The notes under the pieces: model-generated | What the model saw: the letters and a program-made list of their open reading frames with translations, nothing else | What the model was told of the DNA's origin: nothing | Database searches by the model: none | Made by a program: the position numbers and the translations under genes | Origin: Clostridiaceae bacterium | GTDB taxonomy: Bacteria; Bacillota; Clostridia; Acetivibrionales; DULL01 | NCBI GenBank assembly: GCA_012840395.1 | Contig: DULL01000063.1 | Coordinates: 1-62,055, forward strand | Length of the DNA: 62,055 nt | Direction: 5' to 3' | In this document: positions 2,133 to 61,791 of the stretch, in pieces | How the letters are laid out: each line of letters starts with the position of its first letter | Numbering within the stretch: the stretch's first letter is position 1

Positions 2133-3890
2133 ATGAAGAAAGTAAAAATGAATTTTACGGTTCTGTTAAAAGCGGTGCTCTTTATTATACTCCTCACTAC
2201 CACTTTGTCTGGCTGCAGTAATGTGGACAGCAACCAAATAGTATCATATAATAACCTTGATTTTAATGGTGATTCCCGTATAGAAAAGCTTTTAATTTAT
2301 ATGGCGGATGGCAAATATCAGGTTACTGATGACTCCGGTTCTCAAACAGCATGGAACTGGGAAGGGCAGTTTTCCCTTCAGCTCTTTGACAGCAGGGATA
2401 ATCTAATATCAACACTAAATATAAATAAAGCACTTAATATTAGTAAAATGAATTTTAATGGAAAATTTACATTGGAATTTGATGATTATAATGGAGACGG
2501 AAATTATGATTTTTCCTTGGGACAGTTTTCATCAAATAATATGTTCTATTATTATCTGTTTACAATAAAAAGTAATGGAATAATAGAATTACTGCCTGTA
2601 GAAGTTGGCAGTATTCCCAGTTACTATGAAGGATATTCCAGAAAATTTGAAAAATACGGTAATAAGGGATTTAAGACAGTTTATTTTAACAGTTTTTCCG
2701 GAAATAATGTTGAAGTAACATACGAATGGCAAGATAACAAATTTGTTTTGTTAAGAACGGTAGAATTTGAATTAGGGAAGGATGCCCCTGACAACGTGGA
2801 GGAAGTAGTTGAAGACGGCAATCAAAATACAAAAGAGACAGAAGATGGGGATAAAAATGTAAGTGATGGAGACAAAACAGAGGATAATATTGTAGATGTA
2901 ATAACAATTCCCAATATGAATTCAGATGAAAATCAGGAAATCTCTCTTCCATTAATTGAAGGAATGAAAGCAGTGAGATCGGCTTGGGAAATGTCTCAGG
3001 GTTTTAAATTTAAACAGCAAAAAAATAAAGAATTAAAGGAGATTTATCAGTATCAAATTATTGATTCAGAAGGTAATGAAATTGGATGGTTTGGCTTGAT
3101 AGAAAGACAGCAGGGTGAATATGAATTTGCTTTGCCTGAGAATTTGCAGTTTGAAGATTTAAGGTATAAGGGGCCTACAAAACTAGGCCAAGGAAAAGTA
3201 TTTCTCTTATGGTTGGACTTGCCTGAAGATGAGATAAAAGATAATACAGAGGAAGGACTTGAAGAAGAAATAGAGGAAAATATCGAATATATACAGGAAT
3301 ACTTTGCATATATTCCCGTGGAGAATGAAGACCTGGCATATAATTTTAGGCTAAAGGTGACGGATAGCGAAAAACTTGGAGAAATATTCGATTATATGAG
3401 GAAAATTATTATTACAGATGAAGATGTCGAACAAAAAATTCACGAAATGTTTGAAAATGCTGAACCGGAAAAAATAGAAGAAATACTTTCATTGCTTCCA
3501 TACCTGGACTGGGTAAAACTTGCAGGTATTAGCAATTATAGTTTTAATAATTTAGTTCAGTGGTTGAGTAATTATAAATTTGATAACCCGGATCAATTGG
3601 CTGTACTACTGATTAGTACAAATGGCCTTGATGGAGTTTATGCAGAAGCATTCAGTTTTATGCTAAAAGATGTTTTTATAAAAAACGAGCCGGAATTTAT
3701 AAAAGCTTTGCTGAATATCGATGAAGACCAGAGAGAACTCATCAGCTTTTATATTGTTTATGCTCTGGAAGCTAATAGAGATGAAGCTACGATTAATTAT
3801 TTTAAAGAAGGACTTCAATCCGGAAGATACCGGCAGGAGGAAAGGCAGGTCATTGAATTTATTCTTGATGCCCTTGGAATTGGAATGTAG
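2133..3890 (+). CDS. Lipoprotein with acidic linker and helical C-terminus
   Basis: 585 residues from ATG 2133, chosen because GGGGGGAAA (2118-2126) lies just upstream; an in-frame TTG at 2100 has no such site. A lysine-rich start, hydrophobic segment and lipobox LSGC (Cys 28) mark it as a membrane-anchored lipoprotein. The extracellular part has calcium-loop-like DFNGD and DYNGDGNYDF stretches in a beta-rich N-terminal domain, then an acidic low-complexity linker near residues 225-265. A central domain follows. The last 150 residues are strongly helical and could be an armadillo/HEAT-like repeat. I do not recognise a named family and assign no function. Confidence 0.75.
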   Translation: MKKVKMNFTVLLKAVLFIILLTTTLSGCSNVDSNQIVSYNNLDFNGDSRIEKLLIYMADGKYQVTDDSGSQTAWNWEGQFSLQLFDSRDNLISTLNINKALNISKMNFNGKFTLEFDDYNGDGNYDFSLGQFSSNNMFYYYLFTIKSNGIIELLPVEVGSIPSYYEGYSRKFEKYGNKGFKTVYFNSFSGNNVEVTYEWQDNKFVLLRTVEFELGKDAPDNVEEVVEDGNQNTKETEDGDKNVSDGDKTEDNIVDVITIPNMNSDENQEISLPLIEGMKAVRSAWEMSQGFKFKQQKNKELKEIYQYQIIDSEGNEIGWFGLIERQQGEYEFALPENLQFEDLRYKGPTKLGQGKVFLLWLDLPEDEIKDNTEEGLEEEIEENIEYIQEYFAYIPVENEDLAYNFRLKVTDSEKLGEIFDYMRKIIITDEDVEQKIHEMFENAEPEKIEEILSLLPYLDWVKLAGISNYSFNNLVQWLSNYKFDNPDQLAVLLISTNGLDGVYAEAFSFMLKDVFIKNEPEFIKALLNIDEDQRELISFYIVYALEANRDEATINYFKEGLQSGRYRQEERQVIEFILDALGIGM

Positions 3891-56927: not shown

Positions 56928-57505
56928 ATGAATTATAATGAATATTGTCGTTCGGTAATTGACCATTATCCTGAATATGTCACGCAAAAAGAGATGTGCA
57001 AAATCTTGGGTATTTGCACATCAACTGCCTACTCAATTCAAAAAAAGGCCTTATTCCCTTTGAATATGTAAATACACCAGAAGGAAGAAGACAACGGATA
57101 AAGATTACAGACATCCTTCTATACCAATATAAAAAGATGTGTTTTTGTGAATTGGAAAATGAGTTTGTTAAAAATTTACGCAATTATTATCAAAAGCAAC
57201 TACGTGACTTTCCTCAATTGCTTTTGGTTTCTGATATAGTGCGTTTTACCGGGTATGGAAAGACGACAGTGAACAATTGGATATTACGTAATGAACTGAA
57301 GCCTCTTACTTATAAAAATAAGCGGATACAATCACTTAACCGAGGTAAAGGGTCTCTTATAACGAAAGATGCATTTCTTGATTTTTTAACCAGCACATAC
57401 TATCGAAGTATAACAAGGAAATCAAGCATACATAAAGAGCAAGCCAAACAGTACGAGCAGCTCTTTGACATGCTTATGGTGAAGCGAGGTGCTCGGAATG
57501 CCTGA
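56928..57505 (+). CDS. Double helix-turn-helix protein, expressed by -1 frameshift or broken
   Basis: From ATG 56928 the zero frame gives 47 codons to a stop at 57069. At 57041-57047 lies A_AAA_AAG in the zero frame; a -1 slip there continues as GLIPFEYVNTPEGRR to 57505, giving 192 residues. The joined product aligns with the next gene along its length (HYPEYVTQKEMCKILGICTS with KYPEFVTKDQFYRICHISK). Two DNA-binding modules: residues about 13-65, and a second around DFPQLLLVSDIVRFTGYGKT. Either a programmed frameshift of the dnaX type or an A8-to-A7 loss. MerR/excisionase-like regulator of the element. No clear ribosome binding site beyond a weak GTGAGTGAAG. Confidence 0.65.
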
Positions 57506-58046
57506 TTATAGCTTCCTATTAAGTAAGTATCCTGAATTTGTAACGAAAGATCAGTTTTATAGGATATGTCATATAAGTAAAAACACAGCACTATATTATA
57601 TAAAAAATGGTTTCATCCCTTGCATTGATTCTGGAAAAAAGACACGCAGATACAAAATTGCAATAAAAGATATTATTTTCTTTTTAGAAGACAGAGACAA
57701 AAATCCTGAAAAATATTACTTACCTAATCACTATAATAACCCATTTTTGCCAGGCTCAATTAGAAGATATAAGTTTAAATCGCGACTTGACCAATATAAA
57801 AACCATTACAAACTAAAAGGCATAAATGAGGTTAAAGATTATAAGCAATATCTTGAAATGCAATTTGCAGATTATCCAGATATGCTAACAAGTAAATATA
57901 TACAACAAGTTACCGGTCACTCAGCAAGCACAATAATTTCATGGTGCAAGTCCGGCAACTTAAAGTATATAAAACACCATAGCAAATACCTTTTCCCCAA
58001 AAAGAGTGTTATTGATTATTTGTACAATCGTGAATTGCAACTATGA
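57498..58046 (+). CDS. Double helix-turn-helix protein, intact paralogue
   Basis: 182 residues from ATG 57498, overlapping the previous stop, with GAGGTG upstream. Two similar modules: KYPEFVTKDQFYRICHISKN with NTALYYIKNGFIPCIDSGKK (about 7-60), and DYPDMLTSKYIQQVTGHSAS with IISWCKSGNLKYIKHHSKYL (about 122-175). The spacing of helix, turn, helix, wing and 'I/L-P/K' resembles helix_turn_helix_17 and excisionase proteins. A tandem duplicate of the preceding gene. Probably regulates the element; no annotated family is claimed. Confidence 0.7.
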   Translation: MPDYSFLLSKYPEFVTKDQFYRICHISKNTALYYIKNGFIPCIDSGKKTRRYKIAIKDIIFFLEDRDKNPEKYYLPNHYNNPFLPGSIRRYKFKSRLDQYKNHYKLKGINEVKDYKQYLEMQFADYPDMLTSKYIQQVTGHSASTIISWCKSGNLKYIKHHSKYLFPKKSVIDYLYNRELQL

Positions 58047-58053
58047 AGATAGT

Positions 58054-58088
58054 GCCGTTTGTTCTCTTATAGAGCAAATGGCTTTTTT
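58054..58088 (+). terminator. Terminator after HTH genes
   Basis: gccgtttg pairs with caaatggc (one G-T), with an inner ctc/gag pairing, followed by ttttttatt. Confidence 0.88.
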
Positions 58089-58280
58089 ATTGAATAAATA
58101 ATCATTTTGAATTGCAAAGAAGATGGATAATAATGGGGGTATGTATGTTAGCCAACGCTCATTTAAATATTACCTTTCCTTCCCTTTAAATACATAAAAA
58201 CAGTTTGTATAAATGATATAATTAAATTAAATCAATTAATCATTTTGGGAATTGGAGAATTGCAGAGGTGAATAACAGAA

Positions 58281-59414
58281 TTGAGGGATATTAACAGTAT
58301 TCAAGAACTCAGTGAATCTGATATTTTTGAATTATTAAAGTTAAATGAAAAAGACAAGATTTTTGCTGAAAATATTAAAATAAATCGGATGTCAGGAAAA
58401 GATCCTTATGCTAAAGGAGATTTTCGCTTGAATTTTTATAAAGAAGTTATGTCTGACATGTATACTGACGGGTTTATGATGGTATATCCACATGGAACTG
58501 TAGTGCGGCAAGCAAGAAGAAGTTTCTATTATCGCGGTGAGAACCAGCTATATCCTTCTACATCGCCATCACTGTGCAGGTTTTTAAATAATATAGAGAA
58601 TGAAGAAGAAAGAGCTGTTGAACGTTTTGTTGCTGATATGAAAATAGCTGAATTTAATACATTGCTTTTCAAATTTCAACATACCGCTGATTTTTTGGAA
58701 AAAGGTGTTAGCGTCCTATCAGAGCAACTTGCTCAACACTATGGCCTGAAAACCCAGTGGTTGGACATTACAAATGACTTTGAAGTAGCTTTGTTTTTCG
58801 CCTGTTGTAAATATAATAAAAATTACAATATGTGGTCTCCGTTAACGAAATCAGATTTTAATAGAAATGAAAATACTCAGTATGGTATCATATTCAAAAA
58901 GAATACAGAATTAACAGATTTGTTACTTGGATGTGATTTATCATTGGAGGGCAATATACTTCCTATTGGTTTTCAGCCTTTTATGAGAAGTCATATGCAA
59001 ACAGGTTATGCAATACTAATGAATGATCACATGGATTTACAAGACGACATGGATTTTGAAATGTATAAATTTAAGCATAGTGAAAAATTATGCAGTCTTA
59101 TATACAAAAGAATGGATTGTGGTAGAAAAATATATCCTCACGAGGGATTAGTCTCGGTAAAAGATCAAATTGAATTAATTGAACAAAGTCGGGAGTTTAG
59201 TCGTAAAGCATTTGAATATGCTTATAACAAAACAGATTATAAGGTTAAGGATTGGGAACAACTATTGAATAAATATCAATATTACATAGGAAAGACTCCA
59301 ATTAATTTGTCTCGACAAAGAATCAGAGCTGTAAATCGAGCCTATAAAAAGTTTGATATTGAAAAAATATATAACATCAGATTTGTATCTCGCCTATGTT
59401 ATATACCTACATAA
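58281..59414 (+). CDS. FRG-domain protein
   Basis: 377 residues from TTG 58281, eight bases after AGAGGTGA. The FRG domain is clear: YYRGEN (Arg 85, Gly 86) near the start, then LAQHYGLKTQWLDITND (150-166) and ALFFACCKYN (170-179). FRG domains are found in many uncharacterised proteins linked to mobile elements and defence loci, with proposed nucleotide or ADP-ribosyl chemistry not proved in general. The remaining C-terminal 190 residues have no recognised domain. It has its own gap and terminator upstream and is followed within 60 bases by a predicted nuclease gene, so the two form a probable operon. Confidence 0.85.
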   Translation: MRDINSIQELSESDIFELLKLNEKDKIFAENIKINRMSGKDPYAKGDFRLNFYKEVMSDMYTDGFMMVYPHGTVVRQARRSFYYRGENQLYPSTSPSLCRFLNNIENEEERAVERFVADMKIAEFNTLLFKFQHTADFLEKGVSVLSEQLAQHYGLKTQWLDITNDFEVALFFACCKYNKNYNMWSPLTKSDFNRNENTQYGIIFKKNTELTDLLLGCDLSLEGNILPIGFQPFMRSHMQTGYAILMNDHMDLQDDMDFEMYKFKHSEKLCSLIYKRMDCGRKIYPHEGLVSVKDQIELIEQSREFSRKAFEYAYNKTDYKVKDWEQLLNKYQYYIGKTPINLSRQRIRAVNRAYKKFDIEKIYNIRFVSRLCYIPT

Positions 59415-59473
59415 GTGCTTTAAAGACATTAGTTTTTGGCAAAGAACAGTTTGCGTGGTAAGGTGAAGTGGGG

Positions 59474-59932
59474 TTGAATAGTATGGAAAAATGGAAACCT
59501 AAAAATTTTGAAGATAAGTTACTTTATCAATACTGGAGTACTTCAAAGGGAAGTTTGTTTTTAGAAGTACCTATTGGTAATAGAGGACTTGGGAACTGGC
59601 CGCTTGAATCAAAAATCCGTCGGATTGATGGGATTATCGTGAGCAGTGAAAAAGACTATGAAGAACCTAAAGTTTTTAATTCCAAAGAGTATACTCTTAA
59701 TGAACTTCTTAACCTGTTTCAGAAAAAAACAGTTGAGTTAATTGAAGTAAAAAAGAATCTCAATCGATTAGTGATTGGCCAGGTAATAGCAGGTATGGAT
59801 ATGTTTGAAAGGCAATATCAAGCAAACATAATAGTCCCTGTAATTTTGTGTCAGAACGGAGATCCAGCGTTAGAATGGGTTTGTAGAAAAAGAAATATTA
59901 AAGTACAGATTATTCGATGCACTAATTCCTAA
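59474..59932 (+). CDS. Predicted PD-(D/E)XK nuclease-like protein
   Basis: 152 residues from TTG 59474 (AAGGTGA seven bases upstream); ATG 59483 after GGGG is also possible. Pattern: an early helix with Glu (NFEDKLLYQYW), SKIRRIDGIIV with Asp as metal ligand, then VELIEVKKNLNRLVIGQVIAG with the E-x-K pair, followed by a helix and the strand ANIIVPVILCQ. This is the order expected for the PD-(D/E)XK fold. The family assignment is by motif only. Short, with no other domain, so a partner such as the FRG protein may supply targeting. Confidence 0.6.
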   Translation: MNSMEKWKPKNFEDKLLYQYWSTSKGSLFLEVPIGNRGLGNWPLESKIRRIDGIIVSSEKDYEEPKVFNSKEYTLNELLNLFQKKTVELIEVKKNLNRLVIGQVIAGMDMFERQYQANIIVPVILCQNGDPALEWVCRKRNIKVQIIRCTNS

Positions 59933-60020
59933 TATGTCATATATGCCTATAATGAGTTCAGAATTCCAGCTACTACCACTATTTTTTAACATAACCTAAA
60001 TAAATAATGATTATAAGAAA

Positions 60021-60062
60021 AAAGCCGTTTTCTTTATTCGATGATAAAGCAAGCGGCTTTTT
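60021..60062 (+). terminator. Terminator before parA
   Basis: aaagccg pairs with cggcttt, with an inner ctttat/ataaag stem and T5. It ends the FRG-nuclease transcript. Confidence 0.88.
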
Positions 60063-60083: not shown

Positions 60084-60908
60084 GTGTCAAAAGTAATCGC
60101 CCTTGCCAATCAGAAGGGTGGCACAGGCAAAACGACCACAACAGTTAATCTTGGCATCGGTCTTGCTGCACAAGGAAAGAAGGTGCTCCTGGTAGACGCT
60201 GACGCGCAGGGTAATCTGACGGATTCACTGGGTTACCAGGAACCAGACAATCTGCCCGTTTCATTGGCCACTATCCTTACTAAAATCATGATGGAGGAAC
60301 CGTACAACGCAGATGAAGGCATCCTTCATCATGCGGAAGGTGTGGATCTTATGCCGGGCAATATAGAACTGTCTGCCATTGAGGTTTCACTGGTTAATAC
60401 CATGAGTCGTGAAACAGTACTTCGCACATATATCAATACGGTAAAAGACAAATATGATTATGTGCTGATTGATTGTATGCCGAGTTTGGGCATGTTGACA
60501 ATCAATGCTCTTGCTGCAGCAGACAGCGTTATTATTCCCGTACAGGCTCATTACCTGCCAGCCAAAGGAATGACACAGCTTCTACAGACTATTGCCAGGG
60601 TAAGGCGGCAAATCAATCCAAATCTGACTATCGACGGCGTTCTGCTCACAATGGTAGATAATCGTACCAACTTTGCAAAAGATATTTCCTTTATTTTACG
60701 GCGGGACTACGGCGACAAGTTACGAGTGTTCCAAACGGAAATTCCCTTATCAATCCGGGCAGCTGAAACGAGTGCCGAGGGGAAAAGCATCTATATGCAT
60801 GATCCACACGGTATTGCTGCTAAAGCTTATCAGGCCTTTACAAAGGAGGTGCAGAACATTGGCAAAGAGCAACACAAGAGACAGTATAAAACTGACATCA
60901 GTAGATGA
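60084..60908 (+). CDS. parA: ParA/Soj-family partition ATPase
   Basis: 274 residues from GTG 60084 after AAAGGAGGAG. Deviant Walker A KGGTGKTTTT (11-20), with the signature Lys 11; Walker A' LLVDADAQGNLTDSLG; Walker B VLIDCMPSLGMLT. It binds DNA as an ATP dimer and positions the element's DNA with ParB. On an integrative element it stabilises the excised circular form. Overlaps parB by 50 bases. Confidence 0.95.
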   Translation: MSKVIALANQKGGTGKTTTTVNLGIGLAAQGKKVLLVDADAQGNLTDSLGYQEPDNLPVSLATILTKIMMEEPYNADEGILHHAEGVDLMPGNIELSAIEVSLVNTMSRETVLRTYINTVKDKYDYVLIDCMPSLGMLTINALAAADSVIIPVQAHYLPAKGMTQLLQTIARVRRQINPNLTIDGVLLTMVDNRTNFAKDISFILRRDYGDKLRVFQTEIPLSIRAAETSAEGKSIYMHDPHGIAAKAYQAFTKEVQNIGKEQHKRQYKTDISR

Positions 60909-61791
60909 CCTGTTTTCCACGGAGGAAAGCCGCGTAGATAGTCAACGTGAAAAAGTGTTGGAAATACCTCTGTCGGAAATCAGTGATTTTCCTAATCATC
61001 CTTTTAAGGTAAAGGCGGACGAAGCTATGCTGGAGATGGCTGATAGCGTAAAACAGTATGGAGTATTAGTTCCCGGTCTTGTGCGACCAAAGGCAGACGG
61101 TGGCTATGAAATGGTAGCCGGACACCGGCGCAAAAAGGCAAGTGAGCTTGCAGGCCGTGAAACCATGCCGTGTATTGTCCGGAACCTGAATGATGATGAG
61201 GCGACAATTATCATGGTTGACAGCAATCTGCAAAGGGAAAACATTCTTCCGAGTGAAAAAGCTTTTGCATATAAGATGAAGCTAGAGGCTATGAACAGAC
61301 AGGGACAGCGAACAGATTTAACTTCCCGACAACATGTCGGGAAGTTGGAAAGCGCAGATATAATAGGTAAGGAAGTAGGGGAGAGTGGCAGACAAATTCA
61401 GCGTTACATCCGCTTAACCGAGCTTATACCATCTATTCTTGAAATGGTGGACGATAAACGAATCGCCTTTAACCCTGCGGTTGAAATTTCTTACCTGACC
61501 GAAAATGAACAGCAAGACCTATATAAGACCATGCAATCGGAGGATTGCACTCCATCACTCTCACAAGCCCAGAGAATAAAAAAACTAAGCCAGGATGGCA
61601 GACTGAATATTGATGTCATATTTTCCATCCTTACTGAGGAAAAGCCTAACCAAAAAGAAAAGTTCCACATTCAGCGTGAGCGTATAGACCGATTTTTCCC
61701 TAAAAACTTTACCGAAAAGCAAAAGGAAGATTTGATAGTCCAATTACTTGAGAGTTGGTACAAAAAACGGCAAAGGGAACAGGAAAGATAA
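60859..61791 (+). CDS. parB: ParB/Spo0J-family partition protein
   Basis: 310 residues from TTG 60859, chosen for AAAGGAGGTG seven bases upstream inside parA. ParB/sulfiredoxin nuclease-like N-terminal domain with IPLSEISDFPNHPF, then YEMVAGHRRKKASELAG (the GxRR CTP/DNA-binding box reads GHRRKKA) and DSNLQREN, followed by a KorB-like helix-turn-helix (IIGKEVGESGRQIQRYIRLT). Pairs with ParA. The linker RTDLTSRQHVGKLES is encoded by a perfect DNA palindrome. Confidence 0.94.
   Translation: MAKSNTRDSIKLTSVDDLFSTEESRVDSQREKVLEIPLSEISDFPNHPFKVKADEAMLEMADSVKQYGVLVPGLVRPKADGGYEMVAGHRRKKASELAGRETMPCIVRNLNDDEATIIMVDSNLQRENILPSEKAFAYKMKLEAMNRQGQRTDLTSRQHVGKLESADIIGKEVGESGRQIQRYIRLTELIPSILEMVDDKRIAFNPAVEISYLTENEQQDLYKTMQSEDCTPSLSQAQRIKKLSQDGRLNIDVIFSILTEEKPNQKEKFHIQRERIDRFFPKNFTEKQKEDLIVQLLESWYKKRQREQER
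61320..61346. repeat. Perfect 12-bp palindrome inside parB
   Basis: aacttcccgaca and tgtcgggaagtt around aca. It lies in the codons of the linker before the DNA-binding domain. Confidence 0.85.

Follow-up and report, generated by a model that had tools for sequence, protein, structure and literature searches.

Proteins with an FRG domain are widespread candidate defence effectors whose biochemistry is unsettled. In the window analysed here, which means the whole stretch of 62,055 nucleotides and is the entire contig C63 of a 2.8-Mb genome, one such protein is encoded next to a compact nuclease-like protein and to the genes parA and parB. The locus raises the question whether the two genes act as partners in a single defence system or travel together as cargo of a mobile element. 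An earlier, sequence-only reading had proposed a two-gene defence or toxin module. We put the probability at about 0.6 that the locus is a defence cassette of ~1.9 kb, composed of an FRG gene and a nuclease-like gene, in an exchangeable slot left of parA on a mobile element of the Bacillota. With just one further gene, such a cassette offers a small test bed for FRG function.

Layout and boundaries of the locus

The following features were delimited, all given for the + strand:

57489..58046, +, HTH_17 protein (PF12728, E 1.5e-13), outside the left hairpin and excluded from the module
58054..58088, +, left boundary hairpin/terminator (58054-58082, followed by a T-run; z -3.6), sharing its sequence type with the parA-side hairpin
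58281..59414, +, gene 1, FRG-domain protein of 377 aa with TTG start (ORF list, PF08867)
59483..59932, +, gene 2, compact PD-(D/E)XK-like protein (ORF list, alignment with relatives)
60019..60062, +, right boundary hairpin/terminator (z -4.3), conserved before parA in sister elements
60084..60908, +, parA, ParA-type ATPase, element backbone adjoining the cassette
60859..61791, +, parB, ParB/Noc-type, element backbone

The ORF content between 57 and 62 kb is limited to the HTH gene, genes 1 and 2, parA and parB. Both gene 1 and gene 2 are real, as open frames of their length are not expected by chance: a length of 150 codons was reached in two of 500 shuffled copies of the region, and one of 370 codons in none. 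Gene 1 is preceded by a ribosome-binding-like sequence, AGAGGTG, at 58264-58270. For gene 2, which ends at 59932, candidate starts exist at 59468 (GTG), 59474 (TTG) and 59483 (ATG); the alignment with relatives, whose N-terminus reads MWKP, favours the ATG and thereby a predicted product of 149 aa.

The physical description given in the sequence-only reading was borne out in several respects. The two frames are adjacent and co-directional, with the start of gene 2 lying between 59468 and 59483, the hairpins on both sides are real, and the pair is AT-rich relative to parAB (GC content 0.316 for gene 1 and 0.336 for gene 2 versus 0.458 for parA and 0.433 for parB). Since the intergenic gap of 53-68 bp contains no terminator-like hairpin, genes 1 and 2 are probably transcribed together.

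Variable cargo left of parA in sister elements

Related elements were found through parAB, the DNA of which is 90-93% identical in G792, G112 and G025 (three genomes, same order) and 73% identical in a Cohnella plasmid. In blast comparisons of the window with these three sister elements, homology begins only at about 60010-60024 and extends rightwards, and the genes to the left of parA differ. An AriA/OLD-like AAA_15 ATPase together with an HD-CE/HSP90-like protein is encoded there in both G792 and G025, Lamassu-like LmuA/LmuB ABC-3C genes plus others in G112, a type III restriction-modification system in G812, and an HSDR_N P-loop protein (ATPase) in G775. G803 lacks cargo at this point, so that the parA hairpin directly adjoins the element's left-end segment; a type I restriction-modification system lies further left. 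The view that the pair occupies a cargo slot is thus upheld by variable defence cargo at the same position.

The boundary of this slot is marked by a hairpin, GCCGTTTGYTTTATT...AATAAAGCAAGCGGCTTTTT, which stands before parA in the window and in all sister elements compared. The window contains a second copy shortly before gene 1, at 58054, so that the pair lies between the two copies. A pattern for this hairpin, built after both copies had been seen, occurs exactly twice in the 62 kb, whereas 100 shuffles gave no match. From the differing cargo of the sister elements and from the position of the pair between two hairpin copies, it is therefore very likely that genes 1 and 2 constitute an exchangeable defence cassette. 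Its function is probably that of defence cargo, because sister elements carry other phage-defence genes in the same slot. The cassette would extend from about 58087 to 60023, just left of parA, on an element that may be ICE-like or plasmid-like, and in the simplest reading it would have been inserted or swapped at the hairpin boundary.

This arrangement resembles the defence slots of integrative elements, in which one position holds different modules among related elements and one state is empty. It differs in that the left boundary in the window is unlike that of the sister elements and the contig end cuts the element. A search between 53000 and 60030 for the segment that forms the left end of sister elements was negative, and the earlier placement of the pair next to an attachment site was accordingly not confirmed. 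The element is incomplete in the window because the contig ends at 62055.

The hairpin-marked slot beside parA provides a handle for collecting uncharacterised defence genes from sister elements. Varied defence modules lie left of parA across genomes (L093-L098) and can be mined for this purpose; candidates in the slot include proteins of 551 aa and 460 aa in G112 and a protein of 1086 aa in the Cohnella plasmid (L061). As a separate observation, the source genome itself carries JetA/JetC-like Wadjet genes (L103:1370-8102; G000:C103), and a copy of the left-end segment known from the sister elements lies ~8 kb away from them.

Gene 1 encodes a divergent FRG protein

The assignment of gene 1 to the FRG family, proposed from the letters, holds: residues 81-181 match PF08867 with E 1.8e-13 and 51.7 bits (gathering cut-off 25). 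In addition, many PADLOC models of the candidate class PDC-S15 match gene 1 (E 3.9e-13). The family-invariant residues are retained (YRG, AQHYG, D162, T164, FFA, GxQPFxR and Q240). Gene 1 is the sole FRG gene of the source genome, and close-relative scans of genome contigs and viral contigs with gene 1 as query gave no match. Its close relatives form a subgroup of long proteins with GxQPFxRP (L042, L110-L113, L013, L016, L038 and the truncated L018). This subgroup is divergent, with lengths of about 310-450 aa, and the nearest relative is 31-32% identical. A structure model (AF2) computed from a five-sequence alignment reached a mean pLDDT of 37.2, too low for conclusions on the fold.

The neighbourhoods of FRG relatives are of the defence type. 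Close relatives follow type I hsdR genes (G827 and G834; L112 and L113, with a PDDEXK_4 gene downstream), another follows a DEAD-box helicase (L013), and a further one is located in an integron-like array (L016). Elsewhere, hsdS genes precede the FRG gene (L044, L045, L049, L052) or a reverse transcriptase gene adjoins it (L017, L020). The direct adjacency in the latter two loci (L017:2751-4811 and L020:2027-4530) is a side observation which suggests retron-like or other reverse transcriptase systems with an FRG partner.

Published work assigns Frg to the ADP-ribosyltransferase (ART) superfamily and proposes for Frg an antiviral, possibly NADase, role (PMC9503650); the CoCoNuTs paper mentions neither FRG nor HNH. 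With regard to the earlier statement that FRG proteins recur in defence-linked loci without a settled role, the domain is better described than was claimed. The product of gene 1 is most likely an effector of the ART superfamily, which upon infection would consume NAD+ or ADP-ribosylate a target of the host or the phage.

Gene 2 encodes a putative compact nuclease

Gene 2 matches no family in Pfam, PADLOC, NCBIfam or PHROG and no sequence in the PDB. Among 398 genomes searched in the phylum, two contain a relative (G395 and G594; E 6e-25 and 7e-24, 38-39% identity); 391 genomes of the class gave nothing above chance matches. The weak matches at class level (E 0.001-0.008) were rejected as chance, being located in frames that overlap transposase or ABC-transporter genes or outside any ORF. 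Close-relative scans of genome contigs and viral contigs with gene 2 as query gave no match, and the plasmids and phages searched contained no relative (one match with E 8 was disregarded).

In the alignment of gene 2 with its two relatives, the motifs ED.LL, LEVP.G, RRIDG, E-x-K and LNR.VIGQV are retained, and D49, E88, K90 and Q100 (numbering from 59483) are invariant. This D...E-x-K pattern is the one expected of a PD-(D/E)XK nuclease. The assignment to this fold, made in the sequence-only reading, is thus favoured by the conserved D and E-x-K motifs but found no counterpart in any family match or profile-profile comparison: a profile of only three sequences gained no support against PD-(D/E)XK proteins, and hhalign against a PDDEXK_4 protein was negative. 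The single-sequence AF2 model has a mean pLDDT of 32.5, again too low for conclusions on the fold.

Both relatives are located in restriction loci. In G395 the gene lies amid genes for an EVE/AAA McrB, McrC, an HNH protein, a coiled-coil protein and a helicase, and in G594 McrB and McrC follow directly. Gene 2 is thus related to proteins that accompany McrBC-type restriction genes as accessories. Judged from motifs and context, its product would be a metal-dependent nuclease of compact, PD-(D/E)XK-like build that probably cuts invading DNA.

One system or two genes in one cassette

The foremost alternative to a cassette of gathered genes is an obligate two-gene system, in which the FRG enzyme and the nuclease act jointly, for example as sensor or signal maker and effector or with one restraining the other. 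The layout is in keeping with this, as the genes are adjacent on the same strand, have a terminator-free gap and are jointly enclosed by the two boundary hairpins. A profile of gene 2, run over all six frames of all loci collected to that point, had matches in the window, in G395, in G594 and, as a remnant, in G441, but nowhere else. In these small samples, all nine close FRG relatives were without it, and no FRG gene was found near either of the two full-length gene 2 relatives (G395 and G594). A conserved two-gene system is therefore unsupported; homologues that rarely occur together were the very outcome that the sequence-only reading had named as speaking against its pair. What stands of the proposed module is cargo of the defence or toxin type, in agreement with the slot contents of the sister elements and with the location of relatives in defence loci. 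What does not stand is the conserved pairing.

One further locus bears on this point. In G832, a distant FRG relative (L111) adjoins a gene for a 146-aa protein (L111:5225-5665; G832:C1, minus strand; about 3337-3777 of the reverse complement) in which a D...E-F-K pattern was seen by eye. This protein has no Pfam match, and in hhalign its probability against gene 2 is 0.8%, a relatedness that is not detectable; it serves as a lead rather than as evidence.

Taken together, two defence genes gathered in one cassette are more likely than an obligate two-component system, which we regard as a tentative possibility. The specific proposal of a new system, in which an FRG enzyme of the ART type and a compact PD-(D/E)XK nuclease derived from McrBC loci would act jointly from a swappable, hairpin-bounded cassette beside parAB, appears doubtful.

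A second alternative concerns the integrity of gene 2. Both relatives possess a C-terminal domain of about 55-75 aa that ends near THANMGNxFG. Gene 2 lacks this domain, and the DNA downstream contains no remnant of it; a third genome, G441, carries merely a leftover of the same domain. Because this conserved domain is missing, gene 2 might descend from an McrBC-linked nuclease and be in decay, with the FRG gene alone being functional. Against such decay, the nuclease-like core of gene 2 is full length in an open frame and retains all motif residues, and we consider this explanation unlikely.

Stabilisation of the element by a toxin-antitoxin pair, with the FRG protein as toxin and gene 2 as antidote, would fit the compact two-gene layout next to parAB and a Klebsiella plasmid with an FRG gene near sopAB, but is very improbable given that gene 2 retains nuclease-type residues and has its relatives in restriction loci and not beside toxins, that the toxin-sized gene comes first in order, and that most FRG relatives are without a small constant partner.

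Comparison with known systems

The preferred reading, an exchangeable defence cassette of two genes, was compared with known defence systems that share parts of it. The likeness to PF08867/PDC-S15 consists in the score of gene 1 above the curated cut-off, the invariant residues of the family and the defence-type neighbourhoods of its relatives; the differences are its membership in a divergent long subgroup and the lack of a cyclase, reverse transcriptase or type I restriction-modification partner alongside. To type IV McrBC systems, the locus is linked by the only two full-length relatives of gene 2, which adjoin EVE/AAA McrB and McrC, whereas no McrB or McrC is encoded at 57-62 kb of the window and gene 2 is without the C-terminal domain of these relatives.

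A likeness to Pycsar exists in gene position only: in G741 (L042), a PycC cyclase gene (PycC E 1.1e-118) lies upstream of a close full-length FRG relative at a distance of ~530 bp, while no cyclase is found among the ORFs of the window at 55-62 kb. In that genome, only a 76-aa DUF2321 fragment lies between the PycC and FRG genes (L042:2419-4951; G741:C42), which points to a possible combination of Pycsar with an FRG protein.
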